In this document: positions 1 through 10,170 of the stretch, one piece after another
Layout: each line of letters opens with the position of its first letter
Numbering within the stretch: position 1 is the stretch's first letter
Source: Pseudoselenomonas ruminantium
GTDB taxonomy: Bacteria > Bacillota > Negativicutes > Selenomonadales > Selenomonadaceae
Direction: 5' to 3'
Assembly (NCBI GenBank): GCA_002448495.1
Contig: DJYL01000229.1
Span: forward strand, 1-11,751
Length of the DNA stretch: 11,751 nt
Translations under genes and position numbers: made by a program
Notes under the pieces: model-generated
The model's input: only the letters and a program-made list of their open reading frames with translations
Told to the model about the DNA's origin: nothing
Databases searched by the model: none

Positions 1-1480
1 CCTTGGAAATCATGCTCATCTTGAGGAAGGAGCAGAAGACAAAGGCATGGTCATCGAGTACGACCTGCTGCATCTGCAGGGCCAGCTGCGCACGCTTAGC
101 GGGGTCAAATTCGCGGCTCAGCTGTGCTTCCAAAGCATCCAGTTTGGCACTCTGGTACTTGCCCTGATTCTTGGTGGCATTCCCGGCGGCAAACACCGTG
201 AACCAGTATTCGGGGTCACCAGTAGGCGCCTGCACATTGGCCATGGCGTAGATATCCCAGCCCTTCACATCCTTGACTGCCTGATTGTTGTCCGCGGTGC
301 AGTTGACTTCCACCTGCATGCCGATGTCCTTCAAGGTTGACTGGGCAGATTCTGCCAGCAGCGGCAGTTCCTGACGGCTCGGATAGGTCAGCCACTTGAG
401 GACGAGCTTCTTGCCGTTCTTCTCGCGGATGCCATCACCATCCGTATCGACCCAGCCCGCAGCTTCAAGTACCTTCTTGGCACCTTCCGGGTCAAACTTT
501 TCGGCTTTTACCTTATCGCCGCCGAAAGCCGGGCCTGCGGGGAAAACACCGTTAGCCGGGAAGCCGTTGCCATCCAAAAGTTTGGCCACGAAGTTTTCCT
601 TGTCAATGCCCATGGAAATAGCCTGACGCACAGCCGGGTCAGCGCACACCGAATCCGGGTCGAAGTTCATCTTCCCAAAGAAGCAGCGGGAAGTAGAAAT
701 CTGCGAGATATTATACTTGTCATTGCGGAACAGCGGATAGCTTTCATAAGCCATGCCGTAAGCGGCCTGCACTTCACCAGACTGCAGGGCATTGGCGAGC
801 GTATTGCCGTCCGTAATCGTGCGGATGGTAATCTTGTCGAGCTTCGGCGTGCCGCCCCAATAGTTTTCATTTTTCTTGAGTATCAGATGGTCATCCGTCT
901 TGATATCCGTGGCAATATACGGGCCAGTACCGGCCACAATGCCTTTTTCAAAGCCAGCATCCACATCAATGATGCAGCCATAAGGGTCGCCGAGGTAGTT
1001 GAGGAGCGCTGGTTTCGGCTCCTTGGTTTTAATGATAAGCTCCTGCCCATTGGCCTCGATAGAAGCAATATTCAAATCCTGTGCCGCCCGCTTATTATTT
1101 GCAATCAGATGCTCAAAGCACTGCTTGACGGCTGCGGCATCCAGCGCACGGCCGCTGGAAAATTTCACACCATCACGCAAAGTGAACTTCCAGGTAAACT
1201 CGTCCACATTTTCCCATTTGACCGCCAGCCAGGGCTGAATCTCCATATTGTCGCTGTACTTAATCAGCGTTTCCCCGATACCATAACGGATGCAGGCCCA
1301 GCCCGCATAGGTGTTATGCGGATTTACATCCGGCTCCTCGTTGGAACTGTTAAAGGTCGTGTCACCGATGGTCAGCACCTTTTCACCAGTCTTGCTGGCT
1401 GTATCCGTGCCGCAGCCTGTAAGCACGCCGGCACTCAGGACTGCTCCCAATGCCAATGCCACTAATTTTTTCCATTTCAT
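1..1480 (-). CDS. nikA: Nickel/peptide-type ABC transporter substrate-binding lipoprotein (3' end outside window)
   Basis: Extracytoplasmic binding protein of the SBP_bac_5 (NikA/CntA/DppA) family that captures the substrate for the permeases encoded just upstream. The ATG at 1480 follows a strong GGAAGGAG ribosome site. Residues 1-23 form a lipoprotein signal with a KWKK start and the lipobox VLTGC, so Cys23 should be lipidated. Family landmarks are the ETLIKY stretch, PWLA near the N-terminus, WKFTLRDGVKFSSG, GTGPY and the later AVRQAISMGIDKENF region. About 493 codons are visible; relatives have roughly 520-540, so only a short C-terminal part is missing beyond the left edge. It is the last gene of the operon, whereas binding-protein genes often come first. 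The symbol is a family assignment: nickel, a metallophore complex or a peptide could be the ligand, and sequence alone does not decide. Confidence 0.88.
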   Translation of the reverse strand, partial: MKWKKLVALALGAVLSAGVLTGCGTDTASKTGEKVLTIGDTTFNSSNEEPDVNPHNTYAGWACIRYGIGETLIKYSDNMEIQPWLAVKWENVDEFTWKFTLRDGVKFSSGRALDAAAVKQCFEHLIANNKRAAQDLNIASIEANGQELIIKTKEPKPALLNYLGDPYGCIIDVDAGFEKGIVAGTGPYIATDIKTDDHLILKKNENYWGGTPKLDKITIRTITDGNTLANALQSGEVQAAYGMAYESYPLFRNDKYNISQISTSRCFFGKMNFDPDSVCADPAVRQAISMGIDKENFVAKLLDGNGFPANGVFPAGPAFGGDKVKAEKFDPEGAKKVLEAAGWVDTDGDGIREKNGKKLVLKWLTYPSRQELPLLAESAQSTLKDIGMQVEVNCTADNNQAVKDVKGWDIYAMANVQAPTGDPEYWFTVFAAGNATKNQGKYQSAKLDALEAQLSREFDPAKRAQLALQMQQVVLDDHAFVFCSFLKMSMISK

Positions 1481-1526
1481 TTGTCAAAATCTCCTTCCTT
1501 TATGTAAAAAAATTCTACTGCCTCTG

Positions 1527-2285
1527 TTACAAAACGCTGTCAATCAGCTTTTTGGTATATGCTTGCTGCGGATTGTTGATAATCTCATCCGGGATGCCTT
1601 CCTCCACAATTTTGCCTTCGTGCATCACGATTACCCGGTCGCAAAAATCCTGCACGAGCGCAATGTCGTGACAGATAAAGAGATAGGCAATGCCCCGGTC
1701 TTCCTGCAGGCGGTTCAGCAAATCCAAGACCTCTGCCTGCACCGTCACATCGAGCGCCGAGGTCGCTTCGTCGAGAATGACCAGTTCCGGCTCGATAGCC
1801 AAGGCCCGGGCAATGGCCGCCCGCTGGCATTGGCCGCCGCTGACTTCATGCGGATATCGCTGAGCAAATTCCTCTCCCAGACCGCAGAGCGCCAGCAGAT
1901 TTTTCGTCATCTCTGCCGCCTGACGTTTGCTTTTGCCATGATTCAGCAGGCTCTCGCTAATGCCATCCCCTAATGTACAGCGCGGGTCAAAACTGTCCAC
2001 GGGATTTTGAAAGACCATCTGCATTCTGGTGTAGACCTCTTTGAGCTTCGCACCACCGGCATTCGTGATGTCCTCTCCGGCCAGCATAACCTGACCTGCC
2101 GTTGGTTCCAGCAAATGAGCAATCATACGGGCCACGGTGGTCTTGCCACTGCCACTTTCCCCGATAATGGCCAGCTTCTCACCTTTTTTCAAGGAGAAGG
2201 TAACATCATCCACCGCCACAATATCTTCCCCATCCTTGCGTGGAAAGACTTTTTTAAGATGCGCAGTTTGCAGTATCGTATCCAT
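1527..2285 (-). CDS. nikE: ABC transporter ATP-binding protein, NikE/DppF type
   Basis: Cytoplasmic ATPase, 252 residues, one of two that should pair to drive the importer. All ABC motifs are present: Walker A GESGSGKTT at 42-50, Q-loop Gln93, signature VSGGQ at 148-152, Walker B LVILDEA at 168-174, the D-loop SALD and the switch His206. The C-terminus ends shortly after the NPQQAYTKKL segment typical of oligopeptide/nickel ATPases. The ATG at 2285 has AAGGAGG ten bases upstream and lies inside the end of the preceding ATPase gene (32-base overlap), implying translational coupling. The second-ATPase position fits NikE or DppF. The ATPase function is near certain; the substrate is inferred only from the family. 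Confidence 0.9.
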   Translation of the reverse strand: MDTILQTAHLKKVFPRKDGEDIVAVDDVTFSLKKGEKLAIIGESGSGKTTVARMIAHLLEPTAGQVMLAGEDITNAGGAKLKEVYTRMQMVFQNPVDSFDPRCTLGDGISESLLNHGKSKRQAAEMTKNLLALCGLGEEFAQRYPHEVSGGQCQRAAIARALAIEPELVILDEATSALDVTVQAEVLDLLNRLQEDRGIAYLFICHDIALVQDFCDRVIVMHEGKIVEEGIPDEIINNPQQAYTKKLIDSVL

Positions 2286-3072
2286 CCGCTGTCCGCCTCC
2301 TTAGCCTTGGCATTGCCGCCAAAAGTTTTTGCGTATAGGGCGACTGGGGATTTGCCAATATCTCCCCCGCCTTGCCATACTCCATCATTTCCCCTTGATG
2401 AAGCACCAGCATCTTGTCTGACATAGCCCGGACGACACCAATATTATGGGTCACGAGAATGATGGCTGTGCCAAAGAGTTTCCGCGCCAAAAGCATTTCC
2501 TCAATAACCTGCTTCTGCACGGTAACATCGAGTGCCGAAGTGGGTTCGTCGGCCAAGAGAAGCTTCGGTTTTAAGAGCATGGCGGCCGCCACGCCGACAC
2601 GCTGCTGCATTCCTCCGGACAATTCAAAGGGATAGCTGTCCCAGATGCGCTCTGGCTCACTAAAGCCAAACTTCGTAAAGAGCGCACAGGCTTCTGCCTT
2701 TACGGCCACAGCGTTCTCATTTCCATGAGCCGCCATCATTTCCTTAATCTGCGCACCTACGGTACGGATGGGGCAGAAAGAATTGCCTGCCATCTGAAAA
2801 ATCATGCCGATTTCCGTACCGCAGATTTTCTGCATTTCCTTGTCGCTGATATCCGGCAGGTCGAGTCCCTTGTAGTAAATATCGCCACGCGTCACCAGCC
2901 CATCCCGGCCAAGCATCCCCAAAGCAGCCTTAATCAGCGTAGACTTGCCGCTGCCACTTTCCCCGACGATGCCCAAAATCTCCCCTGCACCGAGGGAAAA
3001 ACTTATATCGTGGACAGCTAGTTCCCCATTGTAGCTAATGTCCACATGTTCATAACGGATAATTTCTGACAT
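2254..3072 (-). CDS. nikD: ABC transporter ATP-binding protein, NikD/DppD type
   Basis: Cytoplasmic ATPase of 272 residues and likely partner of the downstream ATPase. Visible motifs are Walker A GESGSGKST at 37-45, Q-loop Gln93, signature LSGGMQQR at 151-158, Walker B LLLADEPT at 171-178, D-loop SALD and switch His209. The C-terminal NPQSPYTQKLLAAMPRL stretch is the oligopeptide/dipeptide ATPase tail motif seen in OppD, DppD and NikD. The ATG at 3072 is preceded by AGGAGATAAT, a good ribosome site. It starts 11 bases after the second permease gene stops and overlaps the next ATPase gene by 32 bases, so it belongs to one operon. Nickel is the best family guess but peptides or metallophores are not excluded. 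Confidence 0.9.
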   Translation of the reverse strand: MSEIIRYEHVDISYNGELAVHDISFSLGAGEILGIVGESGSGKSTLIKAALGMLGRDGLVTRGDIYYKGLDLPDISDKEMQKICGTEIGMIFQMAGNSFCPIRTVGAQIKEMMAAHGNENAVAVKAEACALFTKFGFSEPERIWDSYPFELSGGMQQRVGVAAAMLLKPKLLLADEPTSALDVTVQKQVIEEMLLARKLFGTAIILVTHNIGVVRAMSDKMLVLHQGEMMEYGKAGEILANPQSPYTQKLLAAMPRLRRRTADGYDTANCAS

Positions 3073-3083
3073 ATTATCTCCTG

Positions 3084-3941
3084 TTACTTTCTATTTTTCG
3101 GATCAAGATAATCGCGCACGGTGTCCCCCAGCAGATTGAAAATCATCACCGAGAAGAAAATCGCAAAGCCCGGGGATAGCGTCACCCATGGCTGCGTGGG
3201 CAAAAGATTGCGGGTATCGCTCATCATACTGCCCCATTCCGGAATGGGCGGCTTAGCCCCCAAACCAAGGAAAGAGAGTCCAGCCAGCTCCATCATCATC
3301 GTACCGATATCCAGCATGGCCGTCACCAGAATTGGCCCGGCGATATTGGGCAGTACATGTTTGCGGATAATCTTGCAGGTACCGCTGCCCGCCATTTTTG
3401 CAGCCTGCATGAAAGCAGCTGACTGCAAAGCCAAGGTCTGGCTGCGGGCCAGGCGCGCATATTTTGGCCAACTGATGGCCGCCAGGGCAAAGATGGCATT
3501 ATGAACGCCGCCCCCTAAAACAGCCGCTACTGCCAAAGCAAATACCAACCCCGGGAAAGCCAAAAACATATCGGACATGCGCATGAGCAACGTGTCCACC
3601 CATTTTCCTGCCCAGGCACAGATAATACCGATAATGCTGCCAAAGACCGCAATAAAGCCCACGAGCAGCAAGGTGGAAAAGATACTGGTCTTGCTGCCGG
3701 CAATGACCCTTGATAACATATCCCGGCCATAACGGTCCGTGCCGAGCAAGTGTTCTGCCGAAGGAGCTGCCTTGGTCAAAGACATATCCTGCAGATAAGG
3801 GTCATAAGGGCAGAGATAGTCGCTGAAAAAGGAGGCCAGAATCAATAGAATGGCCAGCCCGCCAAAGAACCAGAGCTTGCGCTGCAGGCGATTTTGCCGT
3901 ACATTCTGTACCCGGATGGTCGGGGTTATTGCCTGACTCAT
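3084..3941 (-). CDS. nikC: ABC transporter permease, NikC/DppC type
   Basis: Inner-membrane permease of 285 residues, the second half of the translocation channel. The N-terminal part has a first membrane segment near residues 23-40, followed by the hallmark HLLGTDRYGRDMLSR stretch at 64-78 of the DppC/NikC branch. The EAA loop that contacts the ATPases lies at about 179-200 (QAAKMAGSG and KHVLPNI). Several hydrophobic segments and the PPIPEWGSMM motif before the last segments are also typical. Its ATG overlaps the stop of the first permease gene as ATGA, which indicates translational coupling. Family assignment is firm; the transported substrate is not. Confidence 0.9.
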   Translation of the reverse strand: MSQAITPTIRVQNVRQNRLQRKLWFFGGLAILLILASFFSDYLCPYDPYLQDMSLTKAAPSAEHLLGTDRYGRDMLSRVIAGSKTSIFSTLLLVGFIAVFGSIIGIICAWAGKWVDTLLMRMSDMFLAFPGLVFALAVAAVLGGGVHNAIFALAAISWPKYARLARSQTLALQSAAFMQAAKMAGSGTCKIIRKHVLPNIAGPILVTAMLDIGTMMMELAGLSFLGLGAKPPIPEWGSMMSDTRNLLPTQPWVTLSPGFAIFFSVMIFNLLGDTVRDYLDPKNRK

Positions 3942-4879
3942 TTGGCATTCACCCCCAGACGGATACGCGGGTCAAGATGGTGGTATAGAAGGTCTGCCAC
4001 CAAATTCACCAGAACATAGATAATGGCCATCCACATGACATAGGCCTGAATGATGGGATAGTCCCGCATGTTGATGGCATCCACGGCCAGTTTGCCTACC
4101 CCATCCCACATAAAGATGCTTTCGATAATGGCCGTACCTCCCAAAAGGCTGCCAATAGACAGCGCCAGCAAGGTCATAATCGTAAGCATCGAAGCCTTCA
4201 TCACGTTTCTCCAGAGAATCACCTGCGCGCTTATACCCCGAGACTTCGCCCCGAGCACGTAATCCTTATTGAGTTCATCCAGCACCGCGCTGCGCACCTG
4301 CCGCAGATATTTAGCAGACATGGCAATCGCTAAAGTCAGGGTAGGCATAATGGCACTCCGAAAATCCGTACCGCTGGAAATGACCGGCAGCACGCCCAGC
4401 TGAATGCCCAAAAACTCCATCAAGAGCATCCCCACAAAGAAGTTCGGCATAGCATTGCCCAGGAAACTGCCGAAACGCAGCACAATATCCGCGATTTTAT
4501 CATGGCGAACCGCCGCCAGTATTCCACAGGGCAGGGAAATCATCACCGTCAGGGCAATGGAAAGCGCCGTCAACAATAAGGTTGCCGGTAGTTTTTTCAT
4601 AAAAGCCAGCAGCACATCCTCACCGGTCACATAGCTAATGCCCATATTGCCATGCAGCATGCCCCAGAGCCAGTTGATATACTGCTGAAAAAATGGCAGG
4701 TTCAGCCCCAAAGCCGCCTTCTTCTCATCAATGATTTCCTGCGCCACTTCCACGCCGCGGTTAGTATACATCTCCGTCACCGCATCACTGCCCGCCATAT
4801 ACATCAGCAAAAACGATAAAAATGTAATGCCAAACAAAATCGGTATCAGCTGGATAAAGCGTTTTACCGCGTAATTCAT
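3938..4879 (-). CDS. nikB: ABC transporter permease, NikB/DppB type
   Basis: First gene of the importer operon, an inner-membrane permease of 313 residues. It has an N-terminal membrane segment (RFIQLIPILFGITFLSFLL), an external stretch with GNMGISYVTGEDV, and then five further hydrophobic segments. The EAA loop is at about 206-217 (DYVLGAKSRGIS). From memory the overall pattern is closest to NikB and to the CntB permease of metallophore transport. Two starts are possible. ATG at 4888 lies only two bases after GGGGAGG; ATG at 4879 lies eleven bases after it and gives the short N-terminus usual for this family, so 4879 is preferred weakly. It is driven by the box-containing promoter at 4916-4957. 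Substrate specificity is inferred, not seen. Confidence 0.87.
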   Translation of the reverse strand: MNYAVKRFIQLIPILFGITFLSFLLMYMAGSDAVTEMYTNRGVEVAQEIIDEKKAALGLNLPFFQQYINWLWGMLHGNMGISYVTGEDVLLAFMKKLPATLLLTALSIALTVMISLPCGILAAVRHDKIADIVLRFGSFLGNAMPNFFVGMLLMEFLGIQLGVLPVISSGTDFRSAIMPTLTLAIAMSAKYLRQVRSAVLDELNKDYVLGAKSRGISAQVILWRNVMKASMLTIMTLLALSIGSLLGGTAIIESIFMWDGVGKLAVDAINMRDYPIIQAYVMWMAIIYVLVNLVADLLYHHLDPRIRLGVNAK

Positions 4880-4915
4880 GCTTGCCATGACCTCCCCTTT
4901 TTTCTATAATAATCT

Positions 4916-4957
4916 ATGATACATGATTTTTTTTTGAAAAATAAGCCCCCCAGGGGG
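4916..4957 (-). promoter_or_regulatory. Promoter of the ABC importer operon with C/G-tract box
   Basis: On the minus strand the 13-base box CCCCCTGGGGGGC (4957-4945) directly abuts the -35-like TTATTT (4944-4939). After exactly 17 bases comes the -10-like TATCAT (4921-4916). Transcription should begin near 4909, giving a leader of about 30 bases before the first permease gene. Outside the box, flanking bases extend the symmetry (AATAA on one side, TTATT on the other). The same arrangement occurs at three other promoters in the window. That a regulator binds the box is inference from its repetition and fixed placement. Confidence 0.72.
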
Positions 4958-5046
4958 TTATTCAGAACATTTTATCCCAATATAGCGTATAACATATATT
5001 TCATCCATATTATTGCCGGATTATTTTTTCTTTTTTTAGTAAAAAT

Positions 5047-5088
5047 CCCCCCAGGGAGCTTGTGAACTTTTTACATAATTTTTATAAT
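5047..5088 (+). promoter_or_regulatory. hydG promoter with C/G-tract box
   Basis: The box CCCCCCAGGGAGC (5047-5059) directly abuts the -35-like TTGTGA (5060-5065). A 17-base spacer leads to a perfect TATAAT at 5083-5088. Transcription should start near 5095, leaving a leader of about 164 bases before hydG. The region between this promoter and the divergent importer promoter (about 4958-5046) is AT-rich and holds no gene I can support. Confidence 0.78.
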
Positions 5089-5094
5089 AACTAT

Positions 5095-5258
5095 AAATAA
5101 CATTCCCTTTTCCTTCGGTGGCTCGGTTGAATGGGGAAAGCACCCTATGCAGAAAACAACATCCCGTTTGTCCTCTGCAATAAATTAAGACGCCGTGCAG
5201 CAGCCTTCCTGCTATGCCCGGCGTCTTGTTTCATATCAGCGAAAAGGAGATTAAGCGT
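5095..5258 (+). ncRNA. Structured 5' leader of hydG, candidate cis-regulatory RNA
   Basis: This untranslated stretch can form three elements in order. First is a possible H-type pseudoknot: CTTTTCC (5107-5113) pairs with GGGAAAG (5134-5140, one G-U), while loop bases GGTG (5117-5120) can pair with CACC (5141-5144) just beyond the stem. Second is a hairpin with TGCAGA (5148-5153) against TCTGCA (5174-5179), extended by ACAAC (5156-5160) against GTTTGT (5166-5171). Third is a long GC-rich hairpin, AAGACGCCG (5187-5195) against CGGCGTCTT (5219-5227), followed by TTGTTTC, which could be a weak terminator, and then the ribosome site. I do not recognise a known riboswitch class. All pairings were found by eye. 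Confidence 0.4.
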
Positions 5259-6674
5259 ATGTACAATCCGAAATCCAGCAAAGCAGATGAATTCATCAAT
5301 CACGAAGAAATTCTCGCCTCCCTTGCTTATGCAGACCAGCATAAAAACGATGCGAAACTCATCGATGCAATTCTCACTAAAGCACGGGAATGCAAAGGCT
5401 TGAATCATCGGGAAGCCTCCGTACTTCTTGCCTGCGACATTCCCGAAAAAAATGAGGAAATCTATCACCTGGCAGAAGAAATAAAAAAAGAATTCTACGG
5501 CAACCGCATTGTTCTTTTCGCCCCGCTTTACCTCTCCAATTATTGTATCAACGGCTGTATCTATTGCCCCTATCATGGCATCAATAAAAATATTCCCCGG
5601 GTAAAACTTACCCAGGAACAGGTCCGTGATGAAGTCATTGCTTTACAAGAAATGGGACACAAACGGCTGGCTATCGAAGCTGGTGAAGATCCGGTAAACA
5701 ATCCCATCGAATACATCCTCGACTGCATTCATACCATTTATTCCGTCAAACATAAAAATGGCGCCATCCGCCGCGTCAATGTAAACATTGCCGCCACCAC
5801 CGTAGAAAATTACCGCCGTCTGCACGAAGCCGGCATTGGCACCTATATCCTGTTTCAGGAAACCTATCATAAGGACTCCTATGAGGTACTTCATCCCACC
5901 GGCCCCAAACATGATTATGCCTACCATACGGAAGCGATGGACCGTGCCATGGAAGGCGGCATTGATGATGTGGGGCTGGGCGTTCTCTTTGGCTTGGATA
6001 AATACCGCTACGAATACGCCGGCCTCTTAATGCACGCAGAGCATCTGGAAGCCAAATTCGGCGTAGGGCCGCATACGATTTCCGTACCGCGAATATGCCC
6101 CGCTGACGATATCGATGTAAACACCTTCAGCAATGCCATTGACGATGACACCTTCGCCAAAATCGTCGCCTGCATCCGGATTGCCGTACCCTATACAGGC
6201 ATGATTGTTTCCACCCGCGAGTCACAAAAATCCCGGGAGAGGGTTCTTCATCTGGGCATTTCCCAGATTTCCGGCGGCTCCCGTACCTCTGTAGGCGGTT
6301 ACACGCAGGAAACACGCCCCGAAGATACCGTGCAGTTCGATGTATCCGATACCCGTTCACTGGACGAGGTGATGAAATGGCTGATTGATATGGACTACAT
6401 TCCTTCCTTCTGTACAGCCTGCTATCGGGAAGGCCGCACCGGTGACCGGTTCATGTCCCTCTGCAAGGCCAAGCAGATTCAAAACTGCTGTCTGCCCAAT
6501 GCACTGATGACGCTGAAGGAATATCTTGAAGATTACGCCTCCCCGGAAACCAGGGCTGCCGGCGAAAAGCTCATCGTGAAAAACATTCCCCGGGTAAGCA
6601 ATCCTGCTGCGCAAAAAACATTACAAAAGCATTTACAGCAAATCGAACAGGGCGAACGGGATTTCCGTTTCTAA
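5259..6674 (+). CDS. hydG: [FeFe]-hydrogenase maturase HydG (radical SAM tyrosine lyase)
   Basis: HydG cleaves tyrosine with S-adenosylmethionine and builds the Fe(CO)2(CN) units for the H-cluster of [FeFe] hydrogenases. The start at 5259 follows AAGGAG nine bases upstream and gives 471 residues, the usual HydG length; an upstream in-frame ATG at 5214 lies inside the leader hairpin and has no ribosome site. The radical SAM cluster motif CX3CX2C is at Cys96, Cys100 and Cys103 (CINGCIYC). The second cluster motif CX2CX22C, which separates HydG from the thiamine enzyme ThiH, is at Cys385, Cys388 and Cys411. It stands alone, convergent with the hydrogenase operon, sharing a terminator and the same promoter box. 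HydE and HydF are not in the window. Confidence 0.95.
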   Translation: MYNPKSSKADEFINHEEILASLAYADQHKNDAKLIDAILTKARECKGLNHREASVLLACDIPEKNEEIYHLAEEIKKEFYGNRIVLFAPLYLSNYCINGCIYCPYHGINKNIPRVKLTQEQVRDEVIALQEMGHKRLAIEAGEDPVNNPIEYILDCIHTIYSVKHKNGAIRRVNVNIAATTVENYRRLHEAGIGTYILFQETYHKDSYEVLHPTGPKHDYAYHTEAMDRAMEGGIDDVGLGVLFGLDKYRYEYAGLLMHAEHLEAKFGVGPHTISVPRICPADDIDVNTFSNAIDDDTFAKIVACIRIAVPYTGMIVSTRESQKSRERVLHLGISQISGGSRTSVGGYTQETRPEDTVQFDVSDTRSLDEVMKWLIDMDYIPSFCTACYREGRTGDRFMSLCKAKQIQNCCLPNALMTLKEYLEDYASPETRAAGEKLIVKNIPRVSNPAAQKTLQKHLQQIEQGERDFRF

Positions 6675-6676
6675 AA

Positions 6677-6720
6677 AAAACAGGCATAGCGAAGAGTAAA
6701 TTCTCCGCTATGCCTGTTTT
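6677..6720. terminator. Bidirectional terminator between hydG and the hydrogenase operon
   Basis: AAAACAGGCATAGCG (6677-6691) pairs with CGCTATGCCTGTTTT (6706-6720), a perfect 15-base stem with a 14-base loop. Runs of T follow on both strands, so it can end the rightward hydG transcript and the leftward hydA operon transcript. It begins three bases after the hydG stop codon. Confidence 0.9.
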
Positions 6721-6737
6721 TCGTCATCCTGAAGTTC

Positions 6738-7397
6738 TTATTTGGTTTCCTTGATTTCATGCTTCGTCCACAGGGGATGATGTTCCTGCGCATACCGGGC
6801 ATTGATTGTCCCGTCACCAAACATACTGCAGAACTCCGGCCAATTATAAATCCCCAGGGGAATATGCCCCCCTACAATGCACATGAACAGGAAAATGCCT
6901 ACTACCAGATGGATGCGGTCAGCATAGAAAGCAATTTCCTTGGGCACCAGCGGCAGGGCGATATAGAGAACCAAGCCCGTCAATATCAGCAAAATCGTCC
7001 CCACCAGTACCATAACGCCCATCATTTTTTGACCGGAATTCAGCTTATTCATGGGCGGAACCTCATATTCGAGCAACAGCAATTTATGAATATAGCCCCC
7101 GGAAATTTTCATCCAGGCATAATCATCATCCGTCCAGGTGGTAATCTCCCGCCAAAAAGCAATCACCCGCCCGGGGCAAAGCAAAAAGAACAAAGCACAA
7201 GCGATAAATAAAACCATACCGCCAACGATATGCACCTGCATCGCCAGATTCATGCCGGCGTCCCCCAGGGGGCGGAAAAAAAGGATTAATCCGGTAAAAC
7301 CTGCTGGCAAAAAGCTGAGCACCAGGCACCAGTGAAACAATCTTGTCGGCAATTTATGATGCAGGATACGCTCATTTCCCTTGAATTTTTTCATCAT
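6738..7397 (-). CDS. Cytochrome b subunit of membrane-bound [FeFe] hydrogenase (FdnI/FdhI-like)
   Basis: Integral membrane diheme cytochrome b of 219 residues, related to the gamma subunit of formate dehydrogenases. It should take electrons from the hydrogenase on the outer face of the cytoplasmic membrane and reduce quinone. Four hydrophobic segments are visible, at about residues 22-41, 53-74, 125-148 and 162-182. Candidate heme ligands are His22 (RLFHW), His56 (QVHIVGG), His163 and His178. The family-typical NKLNSGQK stretch precedes the third segment. A start at 7433 is possible, but it overlaps hydB and lacks a good ribosome site; ATG at 7397 has AAGG seven bases upstream and lies 13 bases after hydB. 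It is the last gene of the operon. A different partner dehydrogenase is possible but unlikely given the gene order. Confidence 0.87.
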   Translation of the reverse strand: MMKKFKGNERILHHKLPTRLFHWCLVLSFLPAGFTGLILFFRPLGDAGMNLAMQVHIVGGMVLFIACALFFLLCPGRVIAFWREITTWTDDDYAWMKISGGYIHKLLLLEYEVPPMNKLNSGQKMMGVMVLVGTILLILTGLVLYIALPLVPKEIAFYADRIHLVVGIFLFMCIVGGHIPLGIYNWPEFCSMFGDGTINARYAQEHHPLWTKHEIKETK

Positions 7398-7410
7398 TCT
7401 CCCGCCTTTC

Positions 7411-7719
7411 TTACAAGATGCTGCGATCGACATAATGGGTATGGAACAACTCTTCAGCCAGCGGGCTCATGGGGTGAAAGTTAAGGCTCTTATACATATT
7501 CAACAGGCTTTGGTTGTTATGGCTCTGGCGTTTCGCCTGCTTCTCATCATCCTGATAAAGGCCAGCCGTACGCATTTTGATGTATTTCGTCCGGTCAACG
7601 ATTAAATCGGTCATCGTATAAGCACCAGTCCAAAGGAAAGCGCTCACGACCCCCACAAAGCCCAAAAACTCCCGGCGGCTGATTTTCACACCTTTTTCTT
7701 CATAGGAATATCTTTTCAT
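7411..7719 (-). CDS. hydB: [FeFe]-hydrogenase small subunit HydB with Tat signal
   Basis: Small subunit of a periplasmic-type [FeFe] hydrogenase, 102 residues. It begins with the twin-arginine motif SRREFLG (Arg15, Arg16), followed by a hydrophobic stretch to about residue 40, which directs folded export of the HydA-HydB complex by the Tat system. The mature part (GLYQDDEK, then KRQSHNNQSLLNMYKSL, then LFHTHYVDRS) matches the Desulfovibrio small subunit; it corresponds to the C-terminal end of one-piece hydrogenases. No clear AxA cleavage site follows the hydrophobic segment, so it may stay as a membrane anchor. AGGAGG precedes the ATG at 7719 by six bases. It lies between hydA and the cytochrome b gene. 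Confidence 0.92.
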   Translation of the reverse strand: MKRYSYEEKGVKISRREFLGFVGVVSAFLWTGAYTMTDLIVDRTKYIKMRTAGLYQDDEKQAKRQSHNNQSLLNMYKSLNFHPMSPLAEELFHTHYVDRSIL

Positions 7720-7729
7720 GGTGTACCTC

Positions 7730-8989
7730 CTACAACCACGGCAAAATTGCCTTAAACTTGCCCGTCCATGATGTTCCCATCGGATTTATGGGCTGACCGC
7801 CACCATTTACGCAGCCGCCCGGACAGTTCATGACTTCGATGAAATGATATGGCGAGCTCCCTGCCTTAATCTCCTTCAGCAAGGGTTCCACATTTTTGGT
7901 TCCATGAACGACTGCTATCTTCAGGGTGATTTCCTGGCCACCGTCCTTGAGCTTCAACGGAATTGATGCCGATTTCACTTCATCCAAACCACGCACAGGC
8001 TTATACGAGAGGTCGTCCATTTCCTGCCCCGTCAGTACATAGTAAGCCGTTCGCAGCGCGGCCTCCATCACACCGCCTGTGGCACCAAAAATCGTTCCGG
8101 CTCCGGTATATTCTGCCAAGGGATTGTCTTTTTCCTCGGCAGGCTGTACATTGCGGATATCAATATCCAACTTTTTGAGCAGTCTTGCCAAATCTCTGGT
8201 CGTCAGTACCACATCCGTATCCTGATAAGTCGCCGTATGCCCCTGTTTCTTCCAATAGTCAGCCGCCGCTGTAAATTCCGGCCGTGAAGCCTCCAGCTTC
8301 TTCGCCGTACACGGATAGACACCTACGCAGAAAATCTGTTCCGGCTCAACCTTCCAGATTTCTTTGGCACCATAGATTTTTGCCACCGGCCCTGCCATCC
8401 CCTGTGGCGATTTAGCCGACGAGAGATGCTGGCGCAAATCCGGATGGTATAGTTCCATATAACGCACCCATGCCGGACAGCAGGAAGTAAACTGGGGCAG
8501 CGGTCCCAATTCCTCGGCTACCGGTTTCTGCAGCACATATTTCTGTATTTTGTGGATGAGTTCCGTCCCCTCCTCCAAGATAGTGTTATCCGCAGCAAAA
8601 TTGACATCCATGATTTTGAAGCCCGCCTGTTTCAGCGCGCCATACATCTGCCCGGTTATCAGCTTCCCGGGTTCCATCCCGAACTCCTCGCCGAGCGCCA
8701 CACGCACAGCCGGCGCTACCGTTGCCACCACCGTTGTCCTGCCGTCCTGCAGTTTCTCAATCACCTGATCGACCACATCCGTAGTGTCCTCAATGGCACC
8801 AAAGGGACAATTCACCAGACACTGCCCGCATTGCAGGCAGCGCTCGCTGTTGATGCGGTGATTCGCTCCATAAGGGCCGTCAATAGCATCAGCCGGACAA
8901 AACGACTTGCAGGTGTCACAGCCCTTGCATTTCGACTCATCAATCCTGATGATGCTGGATAGTTCATTCTCCTGATAGGATTTTGGCAT
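7730..8989 (-). CDS. hydA: [FeFe]-hydrogenase large (catalytic) subunit HydA
   Basis: Catalytic subunit, 419 residues, of Desulfovibrio-type size. Two ferredoxin-like [4Fe-4S] clusters come first (Cys21, 24, 27, 31 and Cys51, 54, 57, 61). Then come the H-cluster motifs: L1 TSCCPAW at 168-174, L2 around Cys227 (YPCTAKKLE), and L3 with Cys389 and Cys393 (MNCPGGCVNGGGQP). The four H-cluster ligands are therefore Cys171, 227, 389 and 393, with Cys170 as the usual proton-relay thiol. The residue two before Cys227, normally Met, is Tyr225. HydA has no signal of its own and should be co-exported with HydB by Tat. It heads the operon, with GGGAGG before the ATG at 8989 and the box promoter about 65 bases upstream. 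H2 oxidation is the likely direction. Confidence 0.95.
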   Translation of the reverse strand: MPKSYQENELSSIIRIDESKCKGCDTCKSFCPADAIDGPYGANHRINSERCLQCGQCLVNCPFGAIEDTTDVVDQVIEKLQDGRTTVVATVAPAVRVALGEEFGMEPGKLITGQMYGALKQAGFKIMDVNFAADNTILEEGTELIHKIQKYVLQKPVAEELGPLPQFTSCCPAWVRYMELYHPDLRQHLSSAKSPQGMAGPVAKIYGAKEIWKVEPEQIFCVGVYPCTAKKLEASRPEFTAAADYWKKQGHTATYQDTDVVLTTRDLARLLKKLDIDIRNVQPAEEKDNPLAEYTGAGTIFGATGGVMEAALRTAYYVLTGQEMDDLSYKPVRGLDEVKSASIPLKLKDGGQEITLKIAVVHGTKNVEPLLKEIKAGSSPYHFIEVMNCPGGCVNGGGQPINPMGTSWTGKFKAILPWL

Positions 8990-9053
8990 AATTACCTTAC
9001 CTCCCCGTCCCTGAAAAAATATCAGTCCACAATCGTATCATTTTCTTTAGTCC

Positions 9054-9095
9054 ATTCTAAAAAAAAACGAATATTCTCACAAGCTCCCCAGGGGG
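9054..9095 (-). promoter_or_regulatory. hydA operon promoter with C/G-tract box
   Basis: On the minus strand CCCCCTGGGGAGC (9095-9083) abuts TTGTGA (9082-9077), then exactly 17 bases, then TAGAAT (9059-9054). Transcription should begin near 9047, giving a leader of about 58 bases. The box, -35 element and preceding AT nearly match the hydG promoter: 19 of the 21 bases from AT through TTGTGA agree. Confidence 0.8.
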
Positions 9096-9118
9096 ATATA
9101 GACTGCATATTTTTTCAA

Positions 9119-9152
9119 CAAAAAACAGGACCATGCATAAGCACAGTCCTGT
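9119..9152 (-). terminator. Terminator downstream of the porin remnant
   Basis: Read on the minus strand, ACAGGAC (9152-9146) pairs with GTCCTGT (9131-9125), followed by a run of T (9125-9120). It lies just beyond the ancestral porin stop at 9161-9159 and upstream of the hydA promoter, which it insulates. Confidence 0.75.
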
Positions 9153-9158
9153 ATGTTA

Positions 9159-10122
9159 TCAGAACATGAAGCGGGCACGAGCAAAAAGCCAGGCTGGCAT
9201 TCCGCCCGATATAACGATAAGCTGCATAAGCACCCCAGGTGCCGGGATTTTTGCGGTTAATGCCCTTGTAGTTCAGGCAAATGTTACCAGCCTTTGCATA
9301 ATTATCAGCGTTGGAGTTTTGTGCATAAGCTCCTGCCAAACTGAAATTCTTATCAAACCGATAGTTGACACCTGCGGACCAGATGTTAAAGTTATCCTCA
9401 TTGGCACTTACGCCTGTAATTCCTTTGAAACTATCCGAGGAAAAATGACGATAACCTAAGCCAGCAAAAACTTTTCCGGAATTATAGTTAAACTGTATGC
9501 CCTGATAATCCGCAGCATTATTTTTACTAACAGTGGAATTTCCTAAATTCCAGCGTCCGTATTTCAACACTGTTTTGAGTTTTTTGCCAAATGTCAGCTG
9601 TCCCCCTGAGAAGAAGTCATCCACAACCAAGCCTTCATCATTGGTACTGGTCAATGGCATCTTACCTGCGGCAACCGTGAAGTTTTTGTATGCGCCTTCT
9701 GCATAAATATAGGTCAAGGTTGCATTCGTAGTAGTATCATTCTTCATGTCATTGCGGGCAGTGATACGCGCTTTAACATGCCAATGGTCATTTACTTCAG
9801 CAGTCGGGAACAGACGCAGTTCTGCACGATTGTGACTACCATCTACACTGCCTTCATTGTTTGTTCTTTGGAAAATATAACGCAATTCCCCGGTCCATTT
9901 CAGCATGTCGGCATTCCGCTCCAAATTAGAAACTCGCACGCCAAGATTATTTAACTCCTCAGCAAATTCTGCTGCTAATTTGTCCACGATTGCTTTATCA
10001 GCACCGGCAGTATTTTTAGCCATGGCTTTGGCCACCATCTGCGCCATTTCATAGCGGGTTATGTTGCGATTGCCCTTAAAAGAACCATCACCATAACCTT
10101 CGATAACTCCATCAAAAGATAC
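9159..10122 (-). pseudogene. Broken SLH-domain outer-membrane porin (OmpM-like)
   Basis: Remnant of a Negativicutes outer-membrane porin, in which an N-terminal SLH domain binds the cell wall and a coiled coil leads to a beta barrel. The open frame begins at 10122, right after a stop codon, in the middle of an SLH domain (VIEGYGDGSFKGNRNITRYE). The signal peptide and first part of SLH are gone. A coiled-coil-like stretch (LAAEFAEELNNLGVRVSNLE) and many barrel strands follow. Near 9200 the frame leaves the family pattern after YRYIGRNASLA, while another frame gives the expected last strand WLFARARFMF and a stop at 9161-9159. That suggests an internal out-of-frame deletion that also removed several strands. 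The longest ATG frame is 10047-9115, 310 residues. It is either a decayed gene or a silent recombination cassette; no functional porin is expected. Confidence 0.8.
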
Positions 10123-10128
10123 TCATTT

Positions 10129-10170
10129 AGGATACCATACTATCCTTCTGAAAATAAGTCCCCTAGAGGG
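10129..10170 (-). promoter_or_regulatory. Promoter of the porin remnant with C/G-tract box
   Basis: On the minus strand CCCTCTAGGGGAC (10170-10158) abuts TTATTT (10157-10152), then 17 bases, then TATCCT (10134-10129). The start site would fall near 10122, exactly where the truncated porin frame opens, so no leader or ribosome site remains between promoter and coding remnant. The box is less regular than the other three, but its placement is identical. Confidence 0.62.

Follow-up and report, generated by a model that had tools for sequence, protein, structure and literature searches.

The stretch of DNA analysed in this work (the window) comprises 11,751 nucleotides of contig DJYL01000229.1 (assembly GCA_002448495.1) of Pseudoselenomonas ruminantium, and plain coordinates refer to it. 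The window encodes a Nik/Opp-type importer operon, the [FeFe]-hydrogenase maturase HydG, the two subunits of an [FeFe]-hydrogenase together with a cytochrome b, and the remnant of a porin (Table 1). Each of these four units is preceded by a short box made up of a C tract and a G tract. This box, which very probably serves as the operator of a nickel regulon as judged from its distribution and its target genes, is the subject of our study.

Table 1. Genes of the window, boxes and promoter elements
Feature	Position	Strand	Remarks
NikB-type permease, first gene of importer operon	3938..4888	-	NCBIfam Opp2B, 346 bits, just below cut-off of 350
NikC-type permease	3084..3941	-	NCBIfam Opp2C (nickel transporter permease), 301 bits, cut-off 300
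NikD-type ATPase	2254..3072	-	resembles NikD/Cnt/Opp ATPases, below equivalog cut-offs
NikE-type ATPase	1527..2285	-	resembles NikE/Dpp/Opp ATPases, below equivalog cut-offs
NikA-type solute-binding lipoprotein, cut by window edge	2..1480	-	Pfam SBP_bac_5; best NCBIfam Opp5A_nikA, 327.9 bits, cut-off 600
HydG, [FeFe]-hydrogenase maturase	5259..6674	+	NCBIfam rSAM_HydG, 916 bits, cut-off 312; start inferred from GGAGA preceding the ATG
HydA, [FeFe]-hydrogenase large subunit	7730..8989	-	NCBIfam FeFe_hydrog_A, 446.7 bits, cut-off 406
HydB, small subunit with twin-arginine translocation (Tat)-like signal SRREFLGF	7411..7719	-	Pfam Fe_hyd_SSU; Tat motif by eye
Membrane cytochrome b subunit	6738..7433	-	Pfam Ni_hydr_CYTB
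S-layer-type porin remnant without start and signal peptide	9115..10047	-	Pfam Porin_4; by-eye comparison with the L022 relative of 412 amino acids
Box 1, CCCCCTGGGGGGC	4945..4957	-	5' of nikBCDEA-type importer operon; kept before nikB in relatives
-35-like TTATTT of box 1, abutting box	4939..4944	-	
-10-like TATCAT of box 1	4916..4921	-	17 bp from -35
Box 2, CCCCCCAGGGAGC	5047..5059	+	5' of hydG; kept before hydG in G005 and G006
-35-like TTGTGA of box 2, abutting box	5060..5065	+	
-10 TATAAT of box 2	5083..5088	+	17 bp from -35
Box 3, CCCCCTGGGGAGC	9083..9095	-	5' of hydA-hydB-cytochrome b
-35-like TTGTGA of box 3, abutting box	9077..9082	-	
-10-like TAGAAT of box 3	9054..9059	-	17 bp from -35
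Box 4, CCCTCTAGGGGAC, degenerate	10158..10170	-	before porin remnant
-35-like TTATTT of box 4, abutting box	10152..10157	-	
-10-like TATCCT of box 4	10129..10134	-	17 bp from -35

A previous sequence-only reading of the window had claimed that the four promoters share one box at an identical distance from the promoter elements. The coordinates and strands, the abutting -35-like hexamers and the spacing of 17 base pairs (bp) were found exactly as claimed when the window was read again. Boxes 1 and 3 fit the consensus given at that time exactly, box 2 with one and box 4 with two mismatches. With up to two mismatches allowed, there are eight strand-matches in the window as compared to a mean of 1.00 in shuffled sequences, and none of 200 shuffles reached eight; since the box is palindromic, these matches correspond to only five distinct places. 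Four of them are the promoters, the fifth (7260-7273) lies inside the cytochrome b gene without -35 or -10 elements after it. This near-perfect palindrome, which is absent from the list of the earlier reading, is probably a chance match. Box 4 is the weakest of the four, and in two relatives, where the porin gene is longer, the orthologous promoter has a stronger version of the box: CCCTCTAGGGGGC in L022 and CCCCCTAGGGGGC in L059 (G and L codes denote the genomes and loci of this analysis).

The box is found again elsewhere in the genome and throughout the genus. In the own assembly, which is incomplete (2.10 Mb, 68.8% complete), the 17-mer CCCCCTRGGGRGCTTRT occurs with at most two mismatches at six places: the four boxes of the window, one site before an S-adenosylmethionine (SAM) methyltransferase gene and one before a MATE transporter gene. 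At exactly three mismatches, 12 more places appear; the reversed control pattern gave four at up to three mismatches. For the genus comparison, we used 22 congeneric genomes (Selenomonas). The box followed by TTRT is present at no more than one mismatch in 19 of them, with none for the reversed control, and in the remaining three (G003, G019, G020) a box ending with TTCC precedes cbiM. The bare 13-mer CCCCCYRGGGRGC has 56 sites in 20 of the 22 genomes, the reversed pattern only two. Flanks were obtained for 52 of these sites (46 distinct contexts): in all 52, TT comes next and the box is located directly upstream of a -35-like hexamer; the other four read CTT, thus TT follows all 56 sites. A TANNNT motif (background 1.3%) occurs 17 bp further on in 30 and 18 bp further on in 22 of the 52 cases. 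The constant spacing of 17 bp therefore holds for the four promoters of the window but widens to 17 or 18 bp in the genus, and the scattering of boxes relative to promoters that the earlier reading had named as its own refutation was not seen. Even back-to-back promoters about 50 bp apart each have their own, correctly oriented box (L033, L043). A matrix built from 48 sites gives the consensus TAT-CCCCC-YR-GGGRG-C-TTR, with flanks that are only partly symmetric. In G004, G017 and G012 (L057:7465, L060:7316, L064:5763), a box promoter is directed towards the 3' end of the cytochrome b gene, and no gene that it might serve is obvious; these orphan promoters are perhaps relics of a lost hydG or hydE promoter.

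The distribution of the box extends far beyond Selenomonas. An exact scan of public genomes for the full form TATCCCCCYRGGGRGCTTRY yielded at least 119 stretches with at least 126 boxes. Among the stretches listed, 13 are from Selenomonas, and most others belong to Oscillospiraceae, Ruminococcaceae, Lachnospiraceae and other Clostridia; two Synergistaceae and two actinobacterial records are also present. The -10 element was not part of the search pattern, and TANNNT (background 0.84% in the public stretches) follows the abutting hexamer at a distance of 17 bp in 95, of 18 bp in 18 and of 16 bp in seven of the 126 listed boxes, with none in six; one match without -10, in Chitinilyticum, is probably due to chance. 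The proposal of a common regulator or a special promoter class is thus supported by the same box and geometry both genus-wide and in these at least 119 stretches. A looser pattern with one mismatch was found in 95 of 189 genomes of the order, and the reversed control in 24 of 189, so single loose matches outside the genus mean little. The order-wide matches at one mismatch include repeated ones in coding regions such as CCCACATGGGAGCTTGT, and no count outside the genus is based on these one-mismatch matches. Strict matches occur in nine genomes of other genera: six of the nine precede genes for a nickel/cobalt importer, a MATE transporter, a methyltransferase or a heavy-metal-associated protein of 80 amino acids, one (L074) points away from such a gene, and for the last two (L068, L069), which may be matches by chance, no target was recognised. 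In L285, a box (6287-6306) precedes a gene that looks by eye like that of a Rex-like redox repressor, with two more boxes nearby in the opposite direction.

What do the target genes have in common? In the genus, the boxes precede nikB operons and genes for the MATE transporter, the methyltransferase, CbiM, HydE, HydG, HydA and the porin. For the 126 listed public boxes, targets were assigned as the best match among query proteins starting 20-450 bases after each box: 37 are CbiM-like proteins, 21 methyltransferases, 12 FecCD, 12 NikA/B/D-like proteins and 11 InrS-like regulators, followed by MATE (3), BtuF-like proteins (2), HydE (2) and others (5), whereas 17 were left unassigned and four had no room for a gene. 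The targets in the window had been regarded as unrelated gene families. This view has to be revised: with the exception of the porin, they belong together functionally, as genes of nickel/cobalt uptake and, in the genus, of [FeFe]-hydrogenase. The genes for the methyltransferase, MATE and the Opp/Nik importer share the box and are in one cluster in some relatives (L063:5199-6551, L058:4722-5480; compare positions 2-4888 of the window), and together they could provide for the synthesis, the export and the renewed uptake of a small nickel chelator. Box-led runs in Clostridia (L245, L263, L277, L298) combine the methyltransferase with an FmdE-like protein (by eye), in L277 also with FecCD/BtuF-type importers, which suggests another route of nickel-chelator import.

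The best candidate for the reader of the box is an InrS-like protein of the CsoR/RcnR family, and given its co-occurrence and its linkage with the box, we consider it very probable that this protein recognizes the box. Proteins with the PF02583 domain are encoded in all 22 congeners, and so is the InrS-like type (E 1e-52 or better). The statement that no regulator is encoded here is correct for the window, but not for the genome, which has an InrS-like gene (G000:C117:3066-3419; the protein in L111 scores 96.6 bits against PF02583, cut-off 22.8). The closest PDB match of the candidate is InrS (5fmn, E 4e-24). The ligand set of InrS, His21-Cys53-His78-Cys82, is present with the same spacing in 44 of 45 distinct proteins that had been picked by a motif containing the first Cys, the remaining one being truncated, and the N-terminus was His-rich in all InrS-like proteins that were read. 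The linkage between gene and box is directly visible in the sequences: at 11 of the 126 listed public sites the box immediately precedes an InrS-like gene, and all 11 proteins are His-rich. A methyltransferase-nikABCDE-inrS run in G070 starts behind a weaker box (CCCCTAGGGTGGG, matrix score 10.2). In L325 (Oscillospiraceae), the inrS-like gene lies between larC and larE-larB, genes of the nickel-pincer cofactor (over the NCBIfam cut-offs), and two boxes are located between the methyltransferase gene and nikB. The box itself has the central GC tract and the short inverted repeats of a type 1 CsoR/RcnR operator as defined in PMC12724321. The resemblance to operators of this family, which the sequence-only reading had offered with reserve, has thus become the leading explanation: the InrS-like gene co-occurs with the box, it follows boxes elsewhere, and the operator of the nickel-responsive family member NreA is similar.

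Two other metalloregulators were considered and rejected. NikR (PF08753) was not found in any of the 22 congeners, and the same profile was found in five of 14 control genomes. A copper-type CsoR, encoded beside a P-type ATPase gene as judged by eye, was not found in the box-bearing genomes G001, G009 and G015, the assemblies of which are 99-100% complete. As a separate observation, the gene that follows the InrS-like regulator gene on the same strand in the own genome (L111:1-3041) looks by eye like that of an RND-type efflux pump, a possible metal exporter.

If the InrS-like protein reads the box, loss of the one might be accompanied by loss of the other. For 43 genomes of the order that encode a close relative of CbiM, the cbiM promoter was scored against the box matrix: A score of at least 8 was reached in 29 of the 38 genomes with an InrS-like gene as compared to none of the five without, where the scores range from -9.3 to -24.5. 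This observation bears on the idea that another activator, of the CRP/FNR type or one not considered here, acts at the box and that the InrS-like gene is found with the box only because both belong to a nickel lifestyle. Class II activators of the CRP/FNR type typically bind near -42, and CRP/FNR-like proteins, just as the boxes, are present in all 22 congeners; this means that their presence cannot separate the candidates. However, CRP/FNR half-sites have a form such as TGTGA-N6-TCACA or TTGAT-N4-ATCAA, and the box consists of contiguous C and G tracts around a central YR rather than of two separated half-sites, so CRP/FNR was rejected as a candidate. Moreover, neither the box directly in front of the inrS-like gene at 11 of the 126 sites nor the coincident loss of regulator and box at cbiM would be expected in this case, with the restriction that CRP/FNR proteins were looked at in the 22 congeners only. 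We therefore regard another activator as quite unlikely.

How might the regulator act at these promoters? In the 46 distinct Selenomonas contexts, the -35 hexamers match TTGACA at a mean of only 2.9 of six positions and the -10 hexamers match TATAAT at 5.07 of six. A poor -35 combined with a good -10 is what is expected of activator-dependent promoters. With the -10 taken as -12 to -7, the box is centred at about -42.5, which is the position of class II activators, and its distance to the -10 is nearly fixed. The near-fixed spacing and the poor -35 might also indicate promoters of an alternative sigma factor, with the box as part of the -35 recognition sequence. Yet the -10 elements are of the standard type, the box is palindromic, and its loss at cbiM tracks the loss of a metalloregulator, and this explanation is thus very improbable. 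A more serious competitor keeps regulator and box but assumes a nickel-bound repressor that blocks RNA polymerase, as NikR does elsewhere. The fixed spacing would then arise because the operator shares bases with the -35, and indeed the conserved right flank GCTTR of the box matrix overlaps the -35; moreover, metal usually represses importers, and negative autoregulation of inrS would be ordinary. Against this, a repressor operator would need neither a constant distance nor a poor -35, and the -35 elements are unlike those of self-sufficient promoters. A type 1 operator that blocks its promoter lies between -35 and -10, whereas the box is upstream of the -35-like hexamer at all 52 Selenomonas sites with known flanks. 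Furthermore, InrS and RcnR lose DNA binding in the presence of metal, according to the portions of PMC4235346 and PMC7055735 drawn on here, and the operator from which NreA exerts repression lies between -35 and -10 and not upstream (PMC12724321, in part). Activation by the apo form is, in our judgement, the fairly probable mode, and nickel-dependent repression an unlikely one: the site near -42.5 together with the poor -35 makes activation by the metal-free protein the best fit.

Based on these considerations, we propose that the operator, in its full form, belongs to an InrS-like, nickel-sensing regulator of the CsoR/RcnR family. We infer that the metal-free protein would bind the site and touch the weak -35, and that this binding would help RNA polymerase to start transcription. 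At nickel sufficiency, the metal would load the His-Cys-His-Cys site, the protein would leave the DNA, and the promoters would fall silent. The core regulon would serve nickel/cobalt acquisition by Nik/Opp-type, CbiM-type and FecCD-type importers, the SAM methyltransferase and the MATE transporter. In Selenomonas, the same switch would also drive hydA-hydB-cytochrome b, hydG and hydE, and the nickel-free [FeFe]-hydrogenase would stand in for the [NiFe]-hydrogenase encoded by the same genomes. Taken as a whole, including the nickel-sparing hydrogenase, this account is somewhat more probable than all its competitors together.

The hydrogenase part is the boldest step of the account and is specific to Selenomonas. 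Close relatives of hydA of the window are present in 15 of the 22 congeners; the assemblies of some of the seven others are incomplete. The box is found before hydA in all 15: in 14 just upstream, in G007 about 860 bases upstream. All 22 congeners encode a full-length [NiFe] large subunit, the gene of which is located beside a cytochrome b gene in the two loci that were read, and in L158 beside that of a small subunit with a Tat-like signal. Six of the 22 [NiFe] loci were inspected for the box and none was found; where the small-subunit gene could be read, these loci extend about 300 bases above it, and less in L155. The [FeFe]-hydrogenase needs neither nickel nor cobalt, and hence nickel-sparing would be the simplest reason for its membership in the regulon. 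Nickel importers and a nickel-free hydrogenase under one switch make sense as a response to nickel shortage, and a nickel-sparing hydrogenase switch in Selenomonas is probable from the arrangement of the boxes. A small protein that has MCKECGC close to its N-terminus and is weakly similar to CopZ/MerP is encoded behind the [NiFe]-hydrogenase cytochrome b gene (L155:3702-3965), and one behind a box in another genus (L067:1584-1826); it is a candidate nickel chaperone.

The same promoters might instead respond to cobalt, or to both metals, with the hydrogenase genes under iron, redox or similar control. CbiM is frequent among the targets. In L047 and L052, a Cobalamin riboswitch heads a second Nik-type operon that adjoins the MATE gene, L047 also encodes CbiK, and both the operon and CbiK are found next to boxes. 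RcnR senses both nickel and cobalt, as stated in the part of PMC7055735 on which we rely. On the other hand, the nikA-type genes, the lar genes for the nickel cofactor and the InrS-like ligand set all point to nickel, and a hydrogenase that needs neither metal is more simply explained by the sparing of nickel. We infer that nickel, and not only cobalt, would be the signal, and see a cobalt or mixed signal as a minor possibility.

Several observations weigh against our interpretation. First, the CsoR/RcnR proteins described so far are mostly repressors, and a box in front of inrS itself would imply positive autoregulation. Second, the loss test has exceptions: nine of the 38 regulator-bearing genomes score below 8 at cbiM (G170, G143, G064, G065, G067, G068, G059, G069 and G070), although some keep half-sites, and in G143 the palindrome is there but its flank is shifted. 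We fixed the cut-off of 8 with the scores already known, the matrix was derived from congeners, some of which are in the same test, the definition of regulator-bearing as E below 1e-25 was also our choice, and four of the five regulator-less genomes represent one genus, so the events are not independent. Third, the regulator gene lies beside ileS rather than beside a box target in the three Selenomonas loci read; its other neighbour is an HPt gene (G005, G001) or, in the own genome, the pump gene mentioned above. Fourth, at one mismatch the box is unspecific outside the genus, with matches in 73 of 167 genomes and the reversed control in 24 of 167. Fifth, the box is absent from the hydA orthologues of the three genomes outside the genus (0/3; G161, G069, G070), and this limits the hydrogenase link to the genus; a complete or partial InrS-like gene is nevertheless present in these three. 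Finally, sequence cannot separate nickel from cobalt as the signal.

Two further features of the window deserve mention. The hydG leader (5090-5262) is long and strongly folded (z -3.27), it is kept in G005, G006 and, as far as aligned, G002, and a GC hairpin within it (about 5187-5227), which passes into TTGTTT, resembles a terminator. Control by a known riboswitch was rejected since no Rfam family reached the threshold in the leader, which may be an unrecognised riboswitch or an attenuator. The porin gene (9115-10134) has lost the start, the signal peptide and the first residues as compared to its L022 relative, and its end differs by eye; the decayed gene, if this is decay and not an assembly fault, still has a recognisable box promoter.

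A survey flagged the NikR-independent regulation of nikABCDE as a gap (PMC2667541, in part), and the CsoR study of gut Firmicutes deals with copper, the word nickel being absent from its main text (PMC4938975). In open-licence PubMed Central, as far as titles and the starts of abstracts go, no report of the box or of nickel control of [FeFe]-hydrogenase genes was found. For many Firmicutes of gut and rumen, the box and its InrS-like partner are a concrete candidate. If the protein is an activator, a family known mainly for repressors has a widespread activating branch, the geometry of which is directly testable; and if the hydrogenase genes respond as proposed, the nickel supply decides which enzyme handles hydrogen in Selenomonas, which bears on the hydrogen flow in the rumen. 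There is, in our view, about an even chance that many anaerobic Firmicutes (Negativicutes and Clostridia) control nickel homeostasis by an InrS-like class II activator that works in its apo form from an operator at a fixed place beside the -35, and that nickel starvation of Selenomonas swaps the [NiFe]-hydrogenase for an [FeFe]-hydrogenase that is membrane-bound and apparently periplasmic, together with its maturases.

The closest solved relative of the candidate regulator is InrS of Synechocystis, with the same spacing of the His-Cys-His-Cys ligands. InrS, however, is described as a repressor of the nickel exporter nrsD in a cyanobacterium (PMC4235346 and PMC7055735, both in part). Here, we find a regulon of several operons in anaerobic Firmicutes with a near-fixed promoter geometry, with [FeFe]-hydrogenase genes in Selenomonas and the box before the regulator gene in Clostridia. 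NreA of Mesorhizobium is a nickel-responsive CsoR/RcnR protein with an operator consensus of 19 bp, TATCCYCtccrgGRGGATA, which is close to TATCCCCCYRGGGRGCTTR, but it represses a nickel tolerance operon from an operator between -35 and -10 (PMC12724321, in the part used). The sites described here lie just upstream of the -35 and mostly at uptake genes. With the NikR regulon of Escherichia coli, our system would share the nickel control of a nikABCDE importer; NikR itself was not found in the 22 congeners searched, and the box is unlike the NikR operator, which consists of widely spaced half-sites. In methanogens, finally, the nickel-free hydrogenase Hmd replaces the nickel enzyme under nickel limitation. 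The proposed switch of Selenomonas would follow the same logic of using a nickel-free hydrogenase for a nickel enzyme when nickel is scarce, but with other enzyme classes in other organisms: [FeFe]- against [NiFe]-hydrogenase, in a bacterium, and by means of one shared promoter box.

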